Assembly: GCA_029006195.1 (NCBI GenBank)
Contig: JAQXGH010000012.1
Location: 1-48,949 of the forward strand
Reading direction: 5' to 3'
Length of the DNA stretch: 48,949 nt
Source of the DNA: Bacillota bacterium
Lineage (GTDB): Bacteria; Bacillota; Clostridia; Peptostreptococcales; Anaerovoracaceae
Shown: positions 7,894 through 46,632 of the stretch, one piece after another
How the letters are laid out: every line of letters starts with the position of its first letter
Position numbering within the stretch: the stretch's first letter is position 1
Position numbers and translations under genes: made by a program
Notes under the pieces: generated by a model
Database searches by the model: none
The model's input: the letters and a program-made list of their open reading frames with translations, nothing else
What the model was told of the DNA's origin: nothing

Positions 7894-10314
7894 ATGATTA
7901 AAACAAAAATCGACTTTATCACAGAGTACAGCAACAAGCTTAAGAATGAATACCATAAGCCTGCTGAATCCTGTACTGACAAAGAGAAGTTTGATGCTCT
8001 TGTTTATCTGGTGAATGATATTGCAGCAGAAATCAAGAACAATCCAACTGAAGCAAGCAAGGCCTTAGGGGAAAAGAAGGTTTATTACTTCTCAATGGAA
8101 TTTCTTATCGGTAAGCTTCTCGAAAACTATTTGATCAACCTGGGAATCAGAGATGTAGTAGCTGAAGGGTTAGAAGAAATGGGAACTTCACTTGAAACCC
8201 TTTGTGCACTTGAACCAGATCCGGGCCTTGGTAACGGCGGTCTTGGCAGACTGGCTGCCTGCTTCCTTGATTCAATGGCAGCAGTTGGCGTTTGCGGAGA
8301 CGGTATGGGACTTAGATATCACTTCGGTCTCTTTAAGCAGAGAATCGTAAGCGGATATCAGGTAGAAGAACCAGATGCATGGCTCGATGGCGGATATCCA
8401 TGGGAAAAGGCTGTTCCTGCGGATGCTATCACAGTTAAGTTCGGCGGAAACGTCAACAGAGAAATGCGTAACGGTAAGATGGAATTCAAGCACGTTGATT
8501 ATCTCAGCGTAAATGCTATTCCTTACGAAGTTCCAGTTGTAGGTTTTGGCGGCAAGGATGTAAACACTCTGTACCTGTGGGATGCTAGACCACTTCATGA
8601 CAGCATCGATATGGATGCTTTTAACAGAGGTGACTACAGCCAGGCAATGAGAGAAAGAAACGAAATCGAAGCAATCACAAGCATTCTGTATCCAGACGAT
8701 AGTAACGGTACAGGTAAGAGACTGAGATTAAGACAGGAATACTTCCTCGTTGCAGCTGGTATGGGCTCAATCATTAGAAATTATAAGGCTAAGTATGGAA
8801 ATGGTGCTTGGAAGGAATTCCCTGACAGAGTATCAGTTCATATCAACGATACACATCCAACTATGTGTATTCCTGAACTCATGAGAATTCTCATCGACGA
8901 AGAAGGTCTGGAATGGGATGACGCATGGGATATCACAGTAAGAACAATGTCATTCACAAACCACACTGTTCTTCCTGAAGCTCTCGAGAAGTGGGCTATC
9001 ACAGAATTCAAGGCGCTGCTACCTAGAATTTACATGATCATTGAAGAAATCAACAGAAGATGGCAGGATAACCTTACTGTTGCTGAAGGTGAATTCCACA
9101 GAGTTTCAAGAGAAACGTCTGCTTTATGGGATAACGAAGTTAAGATGGCTAACCTGTCAGTAATAGGCAGCCATTCAGTTAACGGCGTATCAGCCCTTCA
9201 TAGTGAAATCATTAAGGAAACTATCTTCAGAGACTTTAATGATCTGAACCCTGAAAAGTTCAATAACAAGACTAACGGCATCAGCCACAGAAGATTCATG
9301 ATTCAGGCTAACCCTGCACTTGCTAAGCTGATCAACGAAACAATCGGAACTGGCTGGCAGGAAAACCCTGATGAAATGGAGAAACTCCTTGCTTACACTG
9401 ATAACGAAGAAGTTATTAATAAGCTGGCTGCTGTTAAGAGAGAAAACAAAGAAAAACTGGCTAAGTACATCGCAGACAATATGCATATCGCTGTTGATCC
9501 TGATTCAATATTTGACGTTCAGGTTAAGAGAATTCACGCATATAAGAGACAGCTGCTGAATGGACTTAAGATCCTTAATCTGTATAACACTCTTAAGGAA
9601 AATCCAGATTACAATATTAACAAGTACACATTCATCATCGCTGGTAAGGCTGCACAGGGATATGCTTTCGCTAAGGAAGTTATCAAGTTCCTCAATAGCC
9701 TGGCAGATGTGATCAACTCAGATGAAGAAGTAAATGACAAGATCAAGGTCGTATTCATCGAAAACTTCAGAGTATCAAACGCTCAGATGATTTATCCTGC
9801 TGCTGATATCAGTGAACAGATTTCAACTGCAGGTAAGGAAGCCAGCGGTACAGGTAACATGAAGTTCATGATGAACGGTGCTATCACTCTGGGTACTATG
9901 GATGGTGCTAATGTTGAAATCAACCAGCTGGTTGGTGACGACAATATGCAGATATTCGGTCTTTCATCAGATGAAACTCAGAATTACTACATGAACGGCG
10001 GATATTCAGCATCAACAGTATGTGAAAACGATGCGAGAATCAGAAAGATGGCTGATCAGATGGTTAATGGTTTCTTCGCTAAGAGCGGAACTAACTTCTG
10101 GGGCATCCATGATGAACTGATTCAGCACAACGATGAATATTTCGTTCTTGGTGATTTTGATTCATATAACAGAGCATTTGAGAACCTCGACAGCATCTAT
10201 AACGATAAGATGAAGTGGGGCGCAATGTCTCTGACAAACATTGCTAAATCAGGCTTCTTCTCAAGTGATAGAACGATCAGAGAATACGCTGATGATATTT
10301 GGCATACTAAATAA
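7894..10314 (+). CDS. glgP: Glycogen/maltodextrin phosphorylase
   Basis: This GT35 enzyme releases glucose-1-phosphate from the non-reducing ends of glycogen or maltodextrins using phosphate and pyridoxal phosphate. The 806-residue length is normal. Signatures include LGNGGLGRLAACFLDSMA for substrate binding, HINDTHPTMCIPELMRILID, VKRIHAYKRQLLN, and STAGKEASGTGNMKFMMNGA. In the last, Lys657 is the predicted PLP Schiff-base lysine. It is the first gene of the glg operon, so degradation and synthesis are transcribed together. The start ATG at 7894 is preceded by a weak GAGAGTAGGGTAGG region. Confidence 0.96.
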   Translation: MIKTKIDFITEYSNKLKNEYHKPAESCTDKEKFDALVYLVNDIAAEIKNNPTEASKALGEKKVYYFSMEFLIGKLLENYLINLGIRDVVAEGLEEMGTSLETLCALEPDPGLGNGGLGRLAACFLDSMAAVGVCGDGMGLRYHFGLFKQRIVSGYQVEEPDAWLDGGYPWEKAVPADAITVKFGGNVNREMRNGKMEFKHVDYLSVNAIPYEVPVVGFGGKDVNTLYLWDARPLHDSIDMDAFNRGDYSQAMRERNEIEAITSILYPDDSNGTGKRLRLRQEYFLVAAGMGSIIRNYKAKYGNGAWKEFPDRVSVHINDTHPTMCIPELMRILIDEEGLEWDDAWDITVRTMSFTNHTVLPEALEKWAITEFKALLPRIYMIIEEINRRWQDNLTVAEGEFHRVSRETSALWDNEVKMANLSVIGSHSVNGVSALHSEIIKETIFRDFNDLNPEKFNNKTNGISHRRFMIQANPALAKLINETIGTGWQENPDEMEKLLAYTDNEEVINKLAAVKRENKEKLAKYIADNMHIAVDPDSIFDVQVKRIHAYKRQLLNGLKILNLYNTLKENPDYNINKYTFIIAGKAAQGYAFAKEVIKFLNSLADVINSDEEVNDKIKVVFIENFRVSNAQMIYPAADISEQISTAGKEASGTGNMKFMMNGAITLGTMDGANVEINQLVGDDNMQIFGLSSDETQNYYMNGGYSASTVCENDARIRKMADQMVNGFFAKSGTNFWGIHDELIQHNDEYFVLGDFDSYNRAFENLDSIYNDKMKWGAMSLTNIAKSGFFSSDRTIREYADDIWHTK

Positions 10315-10383: not shown

Positions 10384-11514
10384 ATGAAGAAAAAGTGTAT
10401 CGCAATGCTTCTGGCAGGAGGCCAAGGAAGCAGATTGGGTTTGCTGACAGGAAGTATAGCTAAACCTGCGGTTTCGTTTGGAGGTAAATATAGAATCATC
10501 GACTTCAGTTTATCAAACTGTGTTAATTCTGGAATTGATACAGTTGGTGTTCTGATTCAGTATAAGCCACTGATTCTTAATAAGTATCTCGGAACCGGCG
10601 AAGCATGGGATCTGGATAACTCTAATGGTGGAGTACATATTCTCCCGCCATATGCAGGTGCAACTGGTGGACAGTGGTATGAAGGTACTGCTGATGCTAT
10701 TTATCACAATATTGACTTTATTGATATGTATAATCCGGAGAATGTTCTTATCCTTTCGGGTGACCACATTTATAAGATGGACTATAACGAAATGCTTGAA
10801 TACCATGAAGCTAACAATTCAGATCTGACTGTATCTGTAATGGAAGTACCAATGGAAGAAGCTAGCAGATTCGGCATTATGTCAACTGACGAAGATAATA
10901 GAATTACTAAGTTTGCAGAAAAGCCAAAGGAACCAGAAAGCAATCTGGCATCAATGGGTATTTATATCTTCTCATGGCCTGTTCTTAAGAAGGCTCTTCT
11001 TGAAGATCATGATAAGGAAATCACTTCACATGACTTTGGTAAGGACCTTATTCCTACACTTCTTGGCGAAGGCAAGAACTTATTCGCTTACAACTTCGAT
11101 GGATACTGGAAGGATGTAGGTACTGTTTCAAGTTACTACGAAAGCCAGATGGATATCCTGTACCATGAAACAATGGGTTGGGATTTATTCAGCAGAGACT
11201 TCAGAGTAATGTCAAACTCAAATATGTATCCTCCTCAGCTGATTGGACCTGATGCAGAAATTTCAGATTCAATGATTTGTAATGGATGTAATGTAATGGG
11301 TAAGGTTACTGGATCGATTCTTGGTTCAGGTGCTATCGTAGAAGAAGGTGCAGTTGTTAAGGATTCAATTCTGCTTCCTAATTCATACGTTGGCAAGAAC
11401 TGCCAGGTTACTAGAATCGTACTCAATGAAGGTGCAGAAGTTAAGGACGGCGAAACAGTTGGTAGTATGGTTGGTGACATTCAGGTTATCGGCGAAGCTA
11501 AACTGTCAATTTAG
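10384..11514 (+). CDS. glgC: Glucose-1-phosphate adenylyltransferase, catalytic subunit
   Basis: It makes ADP-glucose from glucose-1-phosphate and ATP, the committed step of bacterial glycogen synthesis. The 376-residue protein has the nucleotidyltransferase motif [12 protein letters not shown] (from residue 11), the [15 protein letters not shown] activator/ATP region, [25 protein letters not shown] for glucose-1-phosphate and YWKDVGT. It ends in a left-handed beta-helix domain with hexapeptide repeats. It is followed by the paralogue glgD after 18 bp, and in Firmicutes the two form a heterotetramer. AGGAGGG upstream supports the start. Confidence 0.96.
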
Positions 11515-11532: not shown

Positions 11533-12630
11533 ATGAAGACTATTGGACTTATTTCCGCAAACTACATCAGTGGTGAATTCGGTGAAATTACAGATAGAAG
11601 AACTCTGGCGTCTATTCCTTATGGCGGCAGATACAGACTTATAGACTTTGCTCTTTCAAATATGGCTAACGCTGGAATTTCAACTGTTGGCGTTATCTCA
11701 CCATATAACTCAGGCTCACTGATCGACCACATCGGTAAAGGTAAGCCATGGGGATTCGGAAGCAAGGTTGGAGGCATTTTCATTTTGCCTGGTTCAGTTT
11801 ACGGCGTAAGTATTTCAGGTAACAGATTCCTGCTGAGAGACTTTATCGCTAACAGACAGTATTTCGAAAGAGACGACGCTGATTACATTCTTATCAGCGG
11901 AAGTTCAGACGTATATAACATGGACTATCGTCCACTGATCGAGCACCATCACGAAATTGGCAGCCCTATCACTGTTGTATATCGTAAGATGGAAGAAAGC
12001 ACTGGATACAGAGGATTCTTTGTAGATACAAATGAAACTGGCTTTGTTACTAAGATGGTTACAAAGTCTACAGGCCCATGTAAGTACTTCATGGACTGCT
12101 TCGTAATCGACAGAAAGTACCTTCTGGACTTCATCGAATGGTTCGCTCCACTGGAATACATGGATATCATGGATATCGTAAGCGAAAACCTCAACTCAAT
12201 CGAAGTAAATACTTTCGAATTTGATGGATACCTTGGTAAGGTAAGTAACATCAACGACTACATGAGAGTAAGCAAGGACTTCTTAAACAAGGAAGTAAGA
12301 AAAGAAATCTTCAACGAAGATCGTAACATCTACACTAAGGTACAGGATGAAGCTCCTGTTCACTTCACAAATACAGCTAATGTTAAGAATTCAATCGTAT
12401 CAGCAGGCTGCATCATCGAAGGTCAGGTAGAAAATTCAATTATCTTCAGAAGTACTCATATCGGTAAGGGTGCTGAAATTAAAGACAGTATCATCATGCA
12501 GCATGGTGAAATCGGAGAAGATGTTGAACTTGCTAACGTAATCTGCGATAAGTACGTTGAAATTACTGAAGGAACAAAGATCAGTGGCGATAGAGATCCT
12601 ATCATCATTGGTAGAGACAAAAAGCTCTAA
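11533..12630 (+). CDS. glgD: GlgD, regulatory subunit of ADP-glucose pyrophosphorylase
   Basis: This is a GlgC paralogue of 365 residues that pairs with and activates GlgC in Firmicutes. It keeps the overall fold (SIPYGGRYRLIDFALSNM, SGSSDVYNMDY, FDGYLGKVSNINDY, and the beta-helix repeats). It lacks the GGxGxRL nucleotide loop: the N-terminus reads ISANYISGEFGEITDRRTLAS. It is therefore probably catalytically inactive, which is the normal state for GlgD. Its location between glgC and glgA is the usual one. Confidence 0.94.
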   Translation: MKTIGLISANYISGEFGEITDRRTLASIPYGGRYRLIDFALSNMANAGISTVGVISPYNSGSLIDHIGKGKPWGFGSKVGGIFILPGSVYGVSISGNRFLLRDFIANRQYFERDDADYILISGSSDVYNMDYRPLIEHHHEIGSPITVVYRKMEESTGYRGFFVDTNETGFVTKMVTKSTGPCKYFMDCFVIDRKYLLDFIEWFAPLEYMDIMDIVSENLNSIEVNTFEFDGYLGKVSNINDYMRVSKDFLNKEVRKEIFNEDRNIYTKVQDEAPVHFTNTANVKNSIVSAGCIIEGQVENSIIFRSTHIGKGAEIKDSIIMQHGEIGEDVELANVICDKYVEITEGTKISGDRDPIIIGRDKKL

Positions 12631-12654: not shown

Positions 12655-14094
12655 ATGGCTAAGAAGAGTATTTTATTTACAGCATTTGAAGCAACGCCTT
12701 TCATCAAGACCGGTGGTCTTGGTGACGTTGCTGGCTCACTTCCTGCTAGCATTAAGTCTAAGGATATAGACATCAGAGTAATCTTACCTAAGCTTGGTCA
12801 GATTCCTGAAAAGTATGTGAAGGAAATGAAATATGTCAAGAACTACGGTGTTCCTCTCGGCTGGAGAATGGAATACTGCGGCCTTTTCGAAATGGAATAT
12901 AACGGCGTTACTATCTACTTCCTGGATAACGAACGTTACTTCATGAGAGATCAGGTTTATGGAGAAGGCGATGACGCAGAAAGAGTTGCTTTCTTCTCAA
13001 AGGCTATTCTTGAAACAATCGGACAGATCAAGTTCAAGCCAGACATCATTCACTGCAATGACTGGCATACAGCACTTGTTCCTGTATTCCTGCATGAACA
13101 TTACAATGGTGTATTCGGATACGATAACATTAAGACTGTTTTCACTATCCATAACCTTAAGTTCCAGGGTGCATATGATCCGTTTATCATCGGTGACATC
13201 TTAGGACTTAACGGTACACCTGCAGAACCTCAGCTCATGCATAATGGTGCAGTAAACTTCCTTAAGGGTGGGGTTATTTACAGTGATATGGTAACTACTG
13301 TAAGCCCTACTTATGCCGAAAACATCTGTACTCCAGAATATGGCGAAGGTCTTGAGGATCTGTTCAACTCAATCAGATACAAACTCAGAGGCATTATTAA
13401 CGGCATCGATTATGATGACCTCAACCCTGCAACTGACCCTAACATCGCTGCACATTATGATGTTAAGAATTTAAGCAATAAGGAACTGTGTAAGCTCGAA
13501 CTCCAGAAGGAACTGGGACTCGATGTTAACTTGGATGTACCTATCTTCGCGATCGTAAGCAGACTTACTGATCAGAAGGGTATGGATATGGTTGCACAGC
13601 TTCTGCCTGAATTTGCTGATATGGATATGCAGGTTGCCATTCTGGGTACAGGCGACAAACATTATGAAGGTTACTTTCAGTATATCGGTAGCCTTTGCCC
13701 TAGTAAAATTGCAGTACGTATCGCATTTAGCGAAAGTCTGTCTAGAAAATTCTATTCAGGTGCAGACGTATTCATGATGCCATCTGTATTCGAACCTTGC
13801 GGTCTGGCGCAGATGATGTCAATGAGATACGGAACTCTGCCGCTTGTTAGAGAAACTGGTGGACTTAAGGATACTGTTGACGGTTACTGGGGTTACGGTG
13901 ATCAGGCTACAGGATTCGACTTCTTATATGCGAATGCATATGAAATGAAGAATGCTGTATACCAGGCACTGGACATCTGGTATAACGACAAGGGACTCTG
14001 GAATCAACTCCAGATCAACGGCATGACAAGAGATTTCAGTTGGCCTAAGTCAGCTAATGAATATATAGCAATGTATGACGAGTTAATAGGATAA
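12655..14094 (+). CDS. glgA: Glycogen synthase (ADP-glucose, GT5)
   Basis: It adds glucose from ADP-glucose to growing alpha-1,4-glucan. The 479-residue GT-B fold protein starts with FTAFEATPFIKTGGLGDVAGSLP, whose KTGGL loop binds the nucleotide sugar. It also has HCNDWHTALVP, TIHNLKFQG, VSRLTDQKG and the C-terminal MPSVFEPCGLAQMMSMRYGTLPLVRETGGL with the conserved E-x7-E pattern. The stop codon is directly followed by the ATG of the next gene (no gap), which suggests translational coupling with the fusion enzyme. Confidence 0.96.
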   Translation: MAKKSILFTAFEATPFIKTGGLGDVAGSLPASIKSKDIDIRVILPKLGQIPEKYVKEMKYVKNYGVPLGWRMEYCGLFEMEYNGVTIYFLDNERYFMRDQVYGEGDDAERVAFFSKAILETIGQIKFKPDIIHCNDWHTALVPVFLHEHYNGVFGYDNIKTVFTIHNLKFQGAYDPFIIGDILGLNGTPAEPQLMHNGAVNFLKGGVIYSDMVTTVSPTYAENICTPEYGEGLEDLFNSIRYKLRGIINGIDYDDLNPATDPNIAAHYDVKNLSNKELCKLELQKELGLDVNLDVPIFAIVSRLTDQKGMDMVAQLLPEFADMDMQVAILGTGDKHYEGYFQYIGSLCPSKIAVRIAFSESLSRKFYSGADVFMMPSVFEPCGLAQMMSMRYGTLPLVRETGGLKDTVDGYWGYGDQATGFDFLYANAYEMKNAVYQALDIWYNDKGLWNQLQINGMTRDFSWPKSANEYIAMYDELIG

Positions 14095-17000
14095 ATGAAA
14101 GTATATCATAATTCGAGATTAGAAGAGTACAGAAAGCCCCTTGGCGCAGCACAGGTATCTTCGAAAGTCAGACTCGCTCTTAAGATAGAACCTTCTTATC
14201 CGGGTGAAACACTTGATATCGAGAATGTTCTGCTCAGATGCTGGCATGATGAACTCGGCGAACTGGTCTTCGAAATGACCGGTGACGGCAAATTCTATAC
14301 TTGTGATGTAAGTATGCCTGATAAGGGTTGCATCGTTTGGTATTTCTTTGTTATCAACAAAGCTTCAGACGATGGTTATGACACTCTGTTTTACGGGAAC
14401 AATGAATTAAATACTGGTGGAGAAGGCTGTATATATGATGTACAGCCGCCTTCATTTCAGATCACAGTTTACAGGCACGAACCTGTCCCTTCATGGTTCA
14501 AGGAAGGTATCGTTTATCAGATCTTTCCTGACAGATTCGCCAGAGACGAAAACTGGCGAGAGAGAGCTGATGCCGCAATCATGCAGTATGGTGAAGGCAA
14601 AGGCCAGAAGAAAATCATCGAAGAAGACTGGTACAGGCCTGCTTATTATGTCAAAGATGAAGAAGGGAACGTTCTTGAGTGGCCTTTCTATGGCGGCAGC
14701 TTCAAGGGCATTCAAGGCAAGCTGAAATACCTGAAATCTTTAGGCGTTTCAGTAATTTACCTTAACCCTATTTCTAAGGCTTCATCAAATCACAGATATG
14801 ACACAGCAGACTATATGAGACCTGACCCTATGCTGGGTTCAGATGAAGATTTTCAGAATCTCGCAAAGGCTGCAGAAGCTGAAGGAATAAGCATTATTCT
14901 GGACGGAGTTTTCAGTCACACTGGCGCAGACAGCATCTATTTCGACAAGTATGAAAAGTACGGGAATGGAGCTTTTGCAAATGAAGATTCACCATATAGA
15001 GACTGGTTCGATTTCAACACTGATGACCCGGTAGGCTATAGAAGCTGGTGGGGTATTAGAGATCTGCCTGAAGTAAATGAGGATAACGAAGATTTCGTCA
15101 AACTCATTTGCGGAGACGGCGGAGTTTTAGAAAAGTGGCTCAGGCTTGGCGCTAAGGGATGGCGTCTTGATGTAGCTGACGAGCTTCCTGACAGATTTAT
15201 TCAGAAAATAAGAACAAAGATCAAATCTGAGGGTAAGGACAATCTCCTTCTGGGAGAAGTCTGGGAAGATGCCAGCAACAAGGAAAGCCACGGCGAAAAG
15301 AGAAAGTATTTTATGGGCGATGAACTGGATTCAACAATGAACTATCCCGTTCGCAGTCTCATTTTAGACTTTATTCATTCAAATATAAGTGCACATATTT
15401 TCCAGGAAAAGCTCTTAAGCTTAAAGGAGAATTATCCTAGAGAAAACTTTTATGGTGCAATGAATCTGATTGGCAGCCATGACAGACAGAGAATTATGAC
15501 TGAAATGGGCGCTGAATCAAATTACGATTATGCCGCTAAGAAGGTTAAGATGGCATCAGTACTTCAGTACGCACTTCCAGGCGTTCCATGCATTTACTAC
15601 GGTGATGAAGCGGGAATGACAGGTGCGGCTGATCCTGAAAATAGAAACGGCTTTATCTGGGATAAAGAAAACACTGATACAGTAGCTTTCTTTAGACAGC
15701 TTGGCCTTATCTATAAGGAACACCCTGTATTAAAGGACGGCGACATCAGAATGATTTCTGATGATGTCGATGTGGCAGGCGGAAAATCAAACGATATTCT
15801 GGCCTTTATAAGAGAAGATGCTGTTAAATACAGAGATGAAAAGATTGTTGTAATAGTCAACAGAAGCAATGAAGTGAAGCCTGTAAGCCTTAAGGGCGTA
15901 AGCGACATCAAGTCAGCATATGCTCTTGAACTTCTGTCTTCATCAGAAATCGGTCTTGTCAAAGGCAAGATGGTTGACTCGATCAGCATGGAACCGCTCT
16001 CTGTTAAGATTATCTGCCTCTTAAAAAATGCTCCTGAGCGTTTCAAAATGAAGAGATGCGCGGGTACTATCTGCCACGTAAGCTCAATTCCAGGAGGAAC
16101 TCTTGGCACTAATGCCAGAAACTTCGTTGACTACCTGGCTGAGGCCGGAATGGGAATCTGGCAGATACTGCCGCTTAACCCAGATGGACTTGGTGGATCT
16201 CCATATAGCAGCAATGCAGTCTTTGCAGGAAATACTGCTTTCATAGATCCGTTAGAGCTTCCGGATATGCTTGAATACAGCGACTTCTTAGAACAAAACG
16301 AGTACTGGCTGAACGATTACGCTGAATATCTGGTTCTGAAGAGATGCTTTGACGGCGATGAATGGTATAAGTGGCCTGAAAAGTACAGAAACAAAACATA
16401 TACAAACCTTGCCAAGGAAATGGGCGTTGATGAAATCGGTGACACATTAGAGGCAATTAAGGTAAATCAGTATTATTTCTGGTATCAGTGGAAAGAGTTA
16501 AAGGCATACGCAAACAGCCGCGGCATTGATATCTTAGGAGATCTGCCTGTATTCGTTGGTGCAGACAGCGCCGATGTATGGGCAAACAGAGACATCTTCC
16601 TTATGGACGAAAATGGCGGACAGAAGTGCCACGCCGGAGTTCCGCCTGATTACTTCTCACCGGAAGGTCAGGATTGGGGAAACCCTCTCTACAACTGGGA
16701 TGCTCTTAAGAAGGACGGATACGGCTGGTGGATCAAGAGACTGGGCCAGTGCAAAGAAAGATATAATTACGTTAGACTGGATCATTTCAGAAGCTTCTCT
16801 GAATTCTATTCAATTCCAGAAGGCGAAACTCCAATAAACGGAAATTGGCAGAACGGCCCTGGACTTGATTTCTTCAGAGCTGTTAGAAGCAAGTACGGCA
16901 AGAGCCTGAAGATACTGGCAGAAGACTTAGGTCAGCTGGATAACGGCGTTGCTAACCTTCTGAAGCTTTCCGGACTTCCTGGTATGAATGTATGGCAGTT

Positions 17001-18471
17001 TTCACAGTATGATATGGATAACATGTCTGAAGAAATGATTCTTACTAGAGCCTTTTACTCAGGAACACACGACAACCAGACTCTTCTGGGCTGGGTTCGT
17101 GAGCAGGGCGGCGGTCCGGGCGAAGCCTTAAAGGTAATTAGACGTTTATACGAAAGCGGTTCACCATGGGCAATCATCCAGCTGCAGGATCTCTTCATGC
17201 TGGACGACAGCTGCAGAATGAATGTACCGGGAGTCCCTAAGGGCAACTGGACATGGAAGGTAACTGAAGATTTAAGTTCGGTTAAGAACCAGAAAATTGC
17301 AAAGGCTTTCAAGCTCCTGGCAGAAGAAACAGGACGAACTAAAGATTTTAGCGCAGAAGCTTTCTTTAAGAAGCATAATATGAACTTCGATAAATTCGAT
17401 ATGGAAAGCGAATGCGATAAAATGGTTGCTTACTATAATGACGCTATAAGCGGCGGCCTCATAGATGCTACAATGGACAGCCCCGAGTCACCTGAAGGCA
17501 GTGTAATTGCTATCGATATGGGAGGCACTAATGTCAGAGTTGCCAGAATCAAAATCGATAACGAAAGCGAGCATCCGGTAAGCATCGAAAGACAGATAAG
17601 AAAGCAGACTCCTGGCAGAGCTGGCAGAGTAACTGCCGCTGAACTCTTCAGAGATATCGCTTCGATGATAGAATTCGTTGATAAAAGAGGTGATTGCCGT
17701 AAGGTTGGCTTCAGCTTCTCATTCCCAATTGAGAGCGACGTCGAAACAAGAGATGCCAAGATTAAGCTTTGGTGCAAAGAACTCGAAGTCATCGGCGGCG
17801 AAGGCCAGTTCGCAGGCCAGCTTCTCAATAAGGCACTCGTCGAAACCGAACAGTTAAAGCGAGATGTTGTAGTGATCAACGATACAGTTGCAGCCTATAT
17901 GGCACACAGAGCACATAAGGTCAGCGACACATGTGTTGCAGGCTTTGTTCTTGGAACCGGTCAGAACATCTGCTTCAAGGATATGGAAACAGGTTTGATC
18001 TACAACCTGGAATCAGGCCGATACGACGGATTTGAAACAGGCGAGCTTGACGAAATCCTGGATGCACAGTCAGAAAATCCAGGAAGCGGCAAAGCAGAAA
18101 AAATGATGTCAGGAGTTTATCTCCCTAGACTGGTAGAAATCGCCTGTGCAAAGGCTATAGAAGACGGCTTCATCTCTGCCGACCTTAGTAAGGTAAGCGA
18201 CAAGAACATGCTTGCGGACATCGAAGATATTATCGTTGATAGATCAGCAATGCTTTCAGCAGTCACTGTAGCTGCCGGCGTAAAGATGGCAACTCACGGC
18301 AAAGTAGGAAACTACTCCGTAGTAGCCGAAGGTTCCCAGTTCTGGAAGACAGAAGGACTGAAAGAGAGAATCGAAAGATACACAAACCAGATTCTAGGCG
18401 GAGATGGTATTCACATTACATTTATCGGAATTCCAGACGCATCACTGGTAGGTGCAGCTGAATCCGTATAA
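14095..18471 (+). CDS. Trifunctional fusion: GH13 glucosidase/debranching-type, GH77 4-alpha-glucanotransferase, eukaryotic-type hexokinase
   Basis: One 1458-residue polypeptide carries three enzymes. Residues about 1-125 are a beta-sandwich-like N-domain. Residues 130-640 are a GH13 amylase/neopullulanase-type barrel with nucleophile Asp359 (GWRLDVADE), acid Glu388 (LLGEVWED) and Asp463 (IGSHDRQR). Residues 650-1110 are a GH77 amylomaltase with Asp896 (YVRLDHFRSF), Glu943 (LAEDLGQL) and Asp993 (SGTHDNQT). Residues 1136-1458 are a hexokinase of the eukaryotic type, with DMGGTNVRV (1141), GFSFSFP (1205), INDTVAAYM with catalytic Asp1263, LGTGQN (1286) and NPG..KAEKMMSGVYL. All catalytic residues seem intact. 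It would cut and rearrange maltodextrins and phosphorylate the freed glucose. It is coupled to glgA. Domain calls are firm; exact GH13 specificity is not. Confidence 0.92.
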   Translation: MKVYHNSRLEEYRKPLGAAQVSSKVRLALKIEPSYPGETLDIENVLLRCWHDELGELVFEMTGDGKFYTCDVSMPDKGCIVWYFFVINKASDDGYDTLFYGNNELNTGGEGCIYDVQPPSFQITVYRHEPVPSWFKEGIVYQIFPDRFARDENWRERADAAIMQYGEGKGQKKIIEEDWYRPAYYVKDEEGNVLEWPFYGGSFKGIQGKLKYLKSLGVSVIYLNPISKASSNHRYDTADYMRPDPMLGSDEDFQNLAKAAEAEGISIILDGVFSHTGADSIYFDKYEKYGNGAFANEDSPYRDWFDFNTDDPVGYRSWWGIRDLPEVNEDNEDFVKLICGDGGVLEKWLRLGAKGWRLDVADELPDRFIQKIRTKIKSEGKDNLLLGEVWEDASNKESHGEKRKYFMGDELDSTMNYPVRSLILDFIHSNISAHIFQEKLLSLKENYPRENFYGAMNLIGSHDRQRIMTEMGAESNYDYAAKKVKMASVLQYALPGVPCIYYGDEAGMTGAADPENRNGFIWDKENTDTVAFFRQLGLIYKEHPVLKDGDIRMISDDVDVAGGKSNDILAFIREDAVKYRDEKIVVIVNRSNEVKPVSLKGVSDIKSAYALELLSSSEIGLVKGKMVDSISMEPLSVKIICLLKNAPERFKMKRCAGTICHVSSIPGGTLGTNARNFVDYLAEAGMGIWQILPLNPDGLGGSPYSSNAVFAGNTAFIDPLELPDMLEYSDFLEQNEYWLNDYAEYLVLKRCFDGDEWYKWPEKYRNKTYTNLAKEMGVDEIGDTLEAIKVNQYYFWYQWKELKAYANSRGIDILGDLPVFVGADSADVWANRDIFLMDENGGQKCHAGVPPDYFSPEGQDWGNPLYNWDALKKDGYGWWIKRLGQCKERYNYVRLDHFRSFSEFYSIPEGETPINGNWQNGPGLDFFRAVRSKYGKSLKILAEDLGQLDNGVANLLKLSGLPGMNVWQFSQYDMDNMSEEMILTRAFYSGTHDNQTLLGWVREQGGGPGEALKVIRRLYESGSPWAIIQLQDLFMLDDSCRMNVPGVPKGNWTWKVTEDLSSVKNQKIAKAFKLLAEETGRTKDFSAEAFFKKHNMNFDKFDMESECDKMVAYYNDAISGGLIDATMDSPESPEGSVIAIDMGGTNVRVARIKIDNESEHPVSIERQIRKQTPGRAGRVTAAELFRDIASMIEFVDKRGDCRKVGFSFSFPIESDVETRDAKIKLWCKELEVIGGEGQFAGQLLNKALVETEQLKRDVVVINDTVAAYMAHRAHKVSDTCVAGFVLGTGQNICFKDMETGLIYNLESGRYDGFETGELDEILDAQSENPGSGKAEKMMSGVYLPRLVEIACAKAIEDGFISADLSKVSDKNMLADIEDIIVDRSAMLSAVTVAAGVKMATHGKVGNYSVVAEGSQFWKTEGLKERIERYTNQILGGDGIHITFIGIPDASLVGAAESV

Positions 18472-18521: not shown

Positions 18522-18896
18522 ATGATAATCAAAATGCTTGCTGTAGGAGTAGGGGGCTTCATAGGATCTATACTCAGATTCCTCATATCACAGATTCCGA
18601 TGTACAAATCATTCGGCAGCTACCCAATGAACACATTCCTCACAAACATAGCGGGTGCCCTCATCATCGGCTTTGTTATCACATATGCCAGACAGACAGA
18701 CATGTCACCCGAAAAGCTGCTGCTCCTCAAAGTCGGCCTCTGCGGTGGCCTGACAACTTTCTCGACATTCTCAGTAGAATCACTGGGTCTGATCGAAAAC
18801 GGCAACTATCTGATGGCGGCAGCGTACATTATATTCTCAGTAGCGATTTGTATAGTGGGGGTTGCGGTAGGCATGAAAGCGGCGGCGCTTGTTTAA
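18522..18896 (+). CDS. crcB: Fluoride channel CrcB/FluC
   Basis: This small four-helix membrane protein of 124 residues forms dimeric fluoride-selective channels. The family motifs GGFIGSILRFLIS near the N-terminus, MNTFLTNIAGALIIGF with the Asn-Gly pair, and GLCGGLTTFSTFSVE with the central Phe box and Na+ site are all present. TGGAGGT precedes the start. It lies 50 bp after the fusion gene with no terminator between, so it is probably the last gene of the glycogen transcript. I see no fluoride riboswitch in the short gap. Confidence 0.93.
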   Translation: MIIKMLAVGVGGFIGSILRFLISQIPMYKSFGSYPMNTFLTNIAGALIIGFVITYARQTDMSPEKLLLLKVGLCGGLTTFSTFSVESLGLIENGNYLMAAAYIIFSVAICIVGVAVGMKAAALV

Positions 18897-18906
18897 CTTA
18901 ATAATT

Positions 18907-18949
18907 AGAGCTTTGCTTTGATCTGATGATTAGGGTAAAGCTCTTTTTT
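18907..18949 (+). terminator. Rho-independent terminator after crcB
   Basis: AGAGCTTT pairs with AAAGCTCT and is followed directly by six T bases. It closes the glycogen operon transcript. Confidence 0.85.
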
Positions 18950-46318: not shown

Positions 46319-46393
46319 TCCGAGGTAGCTCAATGGTGGAGCAACCGGCTGTTAACCGGTAGGCTGTGGGTTCGAGCCCCACCCTCGGAGCCA
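46319..46393 (+). tRNA. tRNA-Asn (GTT)
   Basis: The cloverleaf folds: acceptor TCCGAGG with CCTCGGA, D stem GCTC/GAGC, anticodon stem ACCGG/CCGGT around CTGTTAA (anticodon GTT), T stem GTGGG/CCCAC with TTCGAGC loop, discriminator G and encoded CCA. Confidence 0.97.
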
Positions 46394-46431
46394 ATAAAAA
46401 ATTGATTTGTCTTTACAATATGCCGGAGTGG

Positions 46432-46510
46432 CGGAATTGGCAGACGCACAGGACTTAAAATCCTGCGCTCCTAATCGAGCGTACCGGTTCGACCCCGGTC
46501 TCCGGCACCA
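46432..46510 (+). tRNA. tRNA-Leu (TAA)
   Basis: Acceptor GCCGGAG pairs with CTCCGGC. The anticodon stem CAGGA/TCCTG encloses CTTAAAA (anticodon TAA). The variable arm is long, as in class II tRNAs, the T loop is TTCGACC, the discriminator is A, and CCA is encoded. Confidence 0.96.
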
Positions 46511-46556
46511 ACCCAACCCTTAAGTTGGTCCAGAGAAAGGCAAATCTAAATATCGT

Positions 46557-46632
46557 CGCGGAGTGGAGCAGTTGGTAGCTCGTCGGGCTCATAACCCGGA
46601 GGCCGTAGGTTCAAGTCCTGCCTCCGCAACCA
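46557..46632 (+). tRNA. Initiator tRNA-fMet (CAT)
   Basis: The anticodon loop is CTCATAA. The acceptor stem has a C1-A72 mismatch, and three G-C pairs (GGG/CCC) end the anticodon stem, both hallmarks of initiator tRNA. T stem is GTAGG/CCTGC, discriminator A and CCA encoded. Confidence 0.95.

Follow-up and report, generated by a model that had tools for sequence, protein, structure and literature searches.

A rare GH13-GH77-hexokinase fusion in two species of Anaerovoracaceae and its proposed role in glycogen breakdown

Can a single bacterial polypeptide both clear up the short dextrins left by glycogen breakdown and capture the glucose that is freed on the way? This question is raised by a gene of a Bacillota bacterium (Clostridia, Peptostreptococcales, Anaerovoracaceae; assembly GCA_029006195.1), found on contig JAQXGH010000012.1 within a stretch of 48,949 nucleotides that we analyzed whole and refer to as the window. 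A first-pass annotation of this DNA had read the gene as one open frame carrying a GH13, a GH77 and a eukaryotic-type hexokinase domain, each with a complete catalytic set, and had proposed structure prediction and a search for the same domain order as checks. We find a rare three-enzyme fusion, present in two species, that extends a known kind of GH13-GH77 protein. Its probable role, judged from sequence, is that one polypeptide encoded in the glycogen (glg) operon performs the clean-up of glycogen and maltodextrin breakdown and captures the free glucose.

Three domains in one open reading frame

The gene and its parts are as follows.

14095..18471, + strand: coding sequence of the GH13-GH77-hexokinase fusion, 1458 amino acids plus stop (open frame from ATG to TAA)
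14095..14469, + strand: N-terminal region, residues 1-125, before the GH13 barrel (position ahead of the GH13 match; 47% identity to the fusion of a second species, G169)
14518..15645, + strand: GH13 catalytic domain, residues 142-517, neopullulanase/maltogenic-amylase-like, with D359, E388 and D463 (Pfam and PDB matches)
16054..17295, + strand: GH77 4-alpha-glucanotransferase domain, residues about 654-1067, with D896, E943 and D993 (Pfam and PDB match)
17296..17367, + strand: short GH77-hexokinase joint, residues about 1068-1091, without a separate linker domain (alignments)
17368..18468, + strand: hexokinase module, residues 1092-1458, both lobes, with GGTN 1143-1146, K1228, D1263, N1291, E1306 and E1335 (Pfam, alignments and predicted model)

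Pfam recognizes all three enzymes: Alpha-amylase/GH13 at residues 142-517 (E 5.5e-55, 187.8 bits against a cut-off of 22), two stretches of GH77, of which 727-1058 scores best (E 1.3e-116, 390.7 bits against 25), Hexokinase_1 (PF00349) at 1132-1272 (E 6.6e-20, 72.2 bits against 24.3) and Hexokinase_2 (PF03727), with its best stretch at 1367-1455 (E 2.3e-21, 76.7 bits against 24). Every catalytic residue that the first-pass annotation had named is in place. The Asp/Glu/Asp sets of GH13 (D359 in GWRLDVAD, E388 in GEVWED, D463 in GSHD) and of GH77 (D896 in RLDHFR, E943 in AEDLG, D993 in THDN) are intact, and the hexokinase module has D1263 (in INDTVA), which we take to be the catalytic Asp, GGTN at 1143-1146 and LGTG at 1286-1289 with GTG-N (G1287-N1291), presumably the phosphate-1 and phosphate-2 motifs, and E1306 and E1335, presumably glucose-binding. 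Structure prediction gives the C-terminal module a two-lobed fold, as in human hexokinases; the model of the GH77-hexokinase joint is weak overall (pLDDT 80.8, pTM 0.56), and we therefore make no claim on the arrangement of the domains. Residues 1-125 are a putative carbohydrate-binding or N-domain.

The fusion shares its GH13-GH77 domain order with NF011083 (bifunctional glycogen debranching protein GlgX/4-alpha-glucanotransferase), which it matches at 984.4 bits (the best stretch aligns residues 61-717 to model positions 93-746), below that family's cut-off of 1322 bits; it differs from the NF011083 proteins by the extra C-terminal hexokinase of about 367 residues. For the GH13 module, identity as a GlgX-type debranching enzyme is unsupported because its closest PDB relatives (the best matches of the first 651 residues) are maltogenic amylase, neopullulanase and the maltodextrin glucosidase MalZ, from which it differs in being fused and in lying in a glg operon; the fusion of the second species also carries Malt_amylase_C (PF16657). 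The GH77 module keeps the Asp/Glu/Asp set of the MalQ/DPE1-type 4-alpha-glucanotransferases (PDB 1tz7 and 1cwy; E 1.6e-89 for 1tz7), with residues 98-141 of 1tz7 unaligned and with GH77 here embedded in the fusion. The hexokinase module shares with its family both Pfam domains, the predicted human-hexokinase fold and the catalytic residues, whereas its length of about 367 residues compares with 410-463 in 16 standalone family members, and the aligned standalone enzymes have a 9-residue loop (MLPTYL) and a further 25-45 residues in one stretch that it lacks.

The nearest published analogues that we found, in the part of the source available, are two other bacterial alpha-glucan fusions, TreS-Mak and the GlgB-MalQ of Neisseria suica (PMC11046441). 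Like the present protein they unite alpha-glucan steps in a single chain, that of TreS-Mak containing a sugar kinase, but the enzymes, kinase and product are others, TreS-Mak yielding maltose 1-phosphate.

The same joint in a second species

The window's genome is a fragmented draft of 55 contigs, a circumstance that favors the alternative of an artefact, in which faulty assembly or sequencing ran separate genes together into the long frame; sequencing error had been named at the outset as one thing that would refute the fusion. The search for the same domain order found it once more, in Candidatus Colimonas fimequi (G169; JAGHTQ010000022.1; Bacillota, Clostridia, Peptostreptococcales, Anaerovoracaceae), where GH13, GH77 and hexokinase follow in the same order in one frame of 1428 amino acids. 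The two proteins are 64% identical in GH13, 64% in GH77 and 42% in the hexokinase, and the two fused hexokinases form one clade (99% SH-aLRT). With the in-frame joint repeated at 42-64% domain identity, and with the fused hexokinases in one clade, we give the artefact next to no weight; chance and mis-joined genes are excluded because the second species keeps the three domains in that order in a single frame, and the joint is real. According to the accessible part of its description, Colimonas is the name for GTDB genus UBA1191, drawn from equine faecal metagenomes, and the genus is present in diverse mammalian guts (PMC8957277).

The hexokinase may also have separate internal starts. A scan of residues 1050-1140 with a simple pattern found four in-frame ATG codons in the window copy (residues 1096-1127), none with a Shine-Dalgarno-like sequence. 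Two of the five codons scanned in G169, both inside GH77, do match the pattern, so that internal starts may occur.

Distribution of the fusion and of bacterial hexokinases

Thirty of the 49 genomes of the genus match the fusion protein and 19 have no match. Only the window's genome (G000) and G169 have the three-domain form; six others (G211, G199, G194, G175, G185 and G210; domains checked) have GH13-GH77 in one frame without the hexokinase, likewise lying after glgA, and 22 have separate or partial frames. At higher ranks, Hexokinase_1 is matched by 28 of 349 genomes in the family, 33 of 391 in the class and 22 of 299 in the phylum, each count including the window's own genome; in another class of the phylum (that of G932) the count is 260 of 380, some genomes having two. 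A scan of a contig database retrieved at least 530 hexokinase relatives, of which the best 80 include Planctomycetota, Spirochaetota, Bacteroidota and many Bacillota; an earlier scan of the contig database with a single sequence as query had found no relative.

The first-pass annotation had called a eukaryotic-type hexokinase unusual in bacteria. The assignment to that fold family stands (Pfam, predicted model); its rarity does not, since matches to PF00349 and at least 530 relatives, the best 80 of them spanning several phyla, show the module type to be common in bacteria. What is rare, and confined here to two species, is its fusion to GH13-GH77. Among the best 80 of the relatives, searched up to 5 kb on each side, only the Candidatus Colimonas fimequi record has GH13 or GH77 nearby, and in the scans of family, class and phylum a hexokinase frame of about 800 amino acids or longer, as another GH77-hexokinase joint would require, occurs only in G000 and G169 (matches at contig ends, for example in G242 and G1183, cannot be judged for frame length). 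Within the family, standalone hexokinases account for 25 of the 26 other matching genomes, and both G242 fragments are cut by contig ends. The hexokinase motif is present in 26 of 28 loci read and absent in those two (L021 and L029); where the 26 have run-on frames, of 511-732 amino acids, these are ordinary standalone hexokinases behind a lead that looks non-coding. Hexokinase frames in the second class of the phylum reach at most 558 amino acids among the matches listed. No phage match was found for the hexokinase module.

The fusion had been thought undescribed, and this agrees with our search: in the literature covered, mostly by abstracts and with subscription papers largely outside reach, we recognized no published description of the GH13-GH77-hexokinase architecture, and among the genomes that could be judged only the two species carry it. 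This type of hexokinase is best known from animals and plants, and the fusion points to many bacterial members of the family. A 2025 review of glucose kinases, in the portion available, characterizes the hexokinase family through its eukaryotic members (PMC12696579).

One further joint of a different kind is seen in Lachnospiraceae bacterium RGIG10360 (L211, 3855-6140, + strand), where one frame of 761 amino acids encodes both a hexokinase and a radical SAM domain; that hexokinase may have its own internal start.

Operon context and proposed function

Four genes precede the fusion on the same strand.

7894..10314, + strand: glgP, glycogen phosphorylase
10384..11514, + strand: glgC, glucose-1-phosphate adenylyltransferase
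11533..12630, + strand: glgD
12655..14094, + strand: glgA, glycogen synthase, directly upstream of the fusion

The ATG of the fusion abuts the TAA of glgA (14092-14094) with no gap, which bears out the placement of the gene in the glg operon, starting directly at the glgA stop. Maltogenic amylases, neopullulanases and maltodextrin glucosidases release glucose and maltose from short dextrins, and MalQ/DPE1-type GH77 enzymes release glucose while lengthening chains. In the mechanism that we propose, GlgP would shorten the outer chains with release of glucose-1-phosphate, the GH13 module would hydrolyze the leftover short branched and linear maltodextrins, the GH77 module would disproportionate short maltodextrins into longer chains for GlgP plus glucose, and the hexokinase module would convert the released glucose with ATP to glucose-6-phosphate. 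Because GH77 enzymes are reversible and can use glucose as acceptor, removal of glucose by the kinase would pull disproportionation forward. The first-pass annotation had glucose phosphorylated on the spot; channelling of this kind may occur. We infer the individual activities, the sugar specificity, the way in which flux runs and any kinetic advantage of being fused.

Gene context in relatives agrees with a role in passing glucose to glucose-6-phosphate, in that genes for phosphoglucomutase, hexokinase or Glk-type glucokinase lie near glg or GH13-GH77 genes. Phosphoglucomutase is the next gene after the fusion in G169 and directly follows the two-domain gene in G185 and G210, and in G211 and G194 a Glk-type glucokinase gene (L061, 8999-10084; L063, 4499-5482) adjoins the two-domain gene and points toward it. 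The Glk family PF02685 has matches in nine of the 49 genomes of the genus, and the four strong ones (E <1e-60) are all in two-domain species. As the species are few and related, this link between glucose kinases and two-domain species is suggestive only.

The neighborhood also bears on what the kinase would act upon. It could phosphorylate another sugar (for example, mannose, fructose or glucosamine), or chiefly serve glycogen synthesis through glucose-6-phosphate made from imported glucose, rather than salvage from breakdown: the operon holds synthesis and breakdown genes alike, phosphoglucomutase is next in G169, and eukaryotic hexokinases are broad in specificity. The module is, however, fused to two enzymes of glucose-releasing families, and a glucokinase adjoins the GH13-GH77 gene in two relatives; we consider this reading improbable.

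Several observations weigh against salvage of glucose by the fused kinase. The module diverges faster between the two species than GH13 and GH77 do (42% against 64% identity), which leaves room for an altered function. It has also lost the two segments noted above; its kinetics may be altered or its constraint relaxed. Of 117 standalone copies, only four retain fewer of the 38 conserved columns than the fused module does (the median being 38), a comparison in which conservation inside the filter motifs is partly built in because the sequences were chosen by a motif filter. Where human hexokinase has the Thr of its T-K pair, the window fusion has Cys and G169 has Ser. The remaining points concern glucose kinases elsewhere. 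The other five PF02685 matches in the genus are weak, that of G210 being a ROK protein below the TIGR00744 cut-off; G185 (97% complete) has GH13-GH77 but at E 0.001 matches none of the hexokinase, Glk and ROK families, so that a recognizable glucose kinase is not always needed; and G169 encodes, apart from the fusion, a ROK glucokinase that scores above the TIGR00744 cut-off, so that its fused kinase is not its sole glucose kinase. In the window's genome we found no Glk and no phosphotransferase system EIIC of PF02378, and the sole ROK protein found has an N-terminal helix-turn-helix; to take the fusion as the only glucose kinase there may be wrong, since that genome is 85% complete.

The divergence, the lost segments and the ROK glucokinase of G169 would also fit a domain that resembles hexokinase but acts as a sensor or structural element, binding glucose or glucose-6-phosphate to regulate GH13 and GH77 without phosphorylation. 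Set against this, Asp1263, GGTN, GTG-N, E1306, E1335 and K1228 are kept in both species; we regard the sensor as unlikely, with slightly more in its favor than a kinase for another sugar or for synthesis. Capture of glucose by an active kinase is the reading we prefer. A fuller version of it, in which a trifunctional enzyme turns maltodextrin and ATP into glucose-6-phosphate and a longer dextrin, is the cell's only glucose kinase, tied to glycogen turnover, and arose when a hexokinase of the glg neighborhood was fused to the GH13-GH77 gene and replaced a separate glucokinase, we put forward tentatively, as somewhat more doubtful than not.

If active, the protein would be a naturally occurring fusion of three enzymes by which a single chain stops free glucose from leaking away as glycogen is broken down, and a case for asking whether a kinase fused to a reversible glucanotransferase alters flux; the six two-domain relatives (two with an adjoining glucokinase) and the two fusion species make a small natural series for that question.

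Origin of the hexokinase module

A hexokinase tree was built by a quick method from 119 sequences (148 loci passed the motif filter and 119 different rows were kept). In it the two fused modules share a long branch that falls outside the standalone copies of the family and beside a different bacterial clade, a placement that the long branches make unsure. In the tree of the GH13-GH77 part, G000, G169, G185 and G210 group together (100/100) and the two fused proteins pair weakly (79/85), which fits a single acquisition of the hexokinase, whether or not G185 lost it. We infer that, once in this lineage, a standalone hexokinase of the glg neighborhood was added to the 3' end of a GH13-GH77 gene that already existed.

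A possible picture of the state before fusion is seen in G292, from another genus of the same family (L219, contig 24, 10918-13984). There a standalone hexokinase lies directly before phosphoglucomutase and is divergent from a run glgB-glgP-glgC-glgD-glgA-GH13-GH77, the last gene of which is cut by the contig end (glgP and glgC were identified by tblastn; glgB, glgD and glgA by resemblance only).

Downstream and other features of the window

Two features follow the fusion.

18522..18896, + strand: crcB, 50 bases downstream of the fusion, a neighbor outside the enzyme
18907..18944, + strand: terminator-like hairpin after crcB, a possible operon end (consensus pattern scan only, which found 10 such sites against 7.6 expected in shuffles)

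crcB occupies the place where G169 has phosphoglucomutase. At the gathering threshold, Rfam finds only tRNAs in the window, among them three consecutive tRNA genes at 46319-46629.

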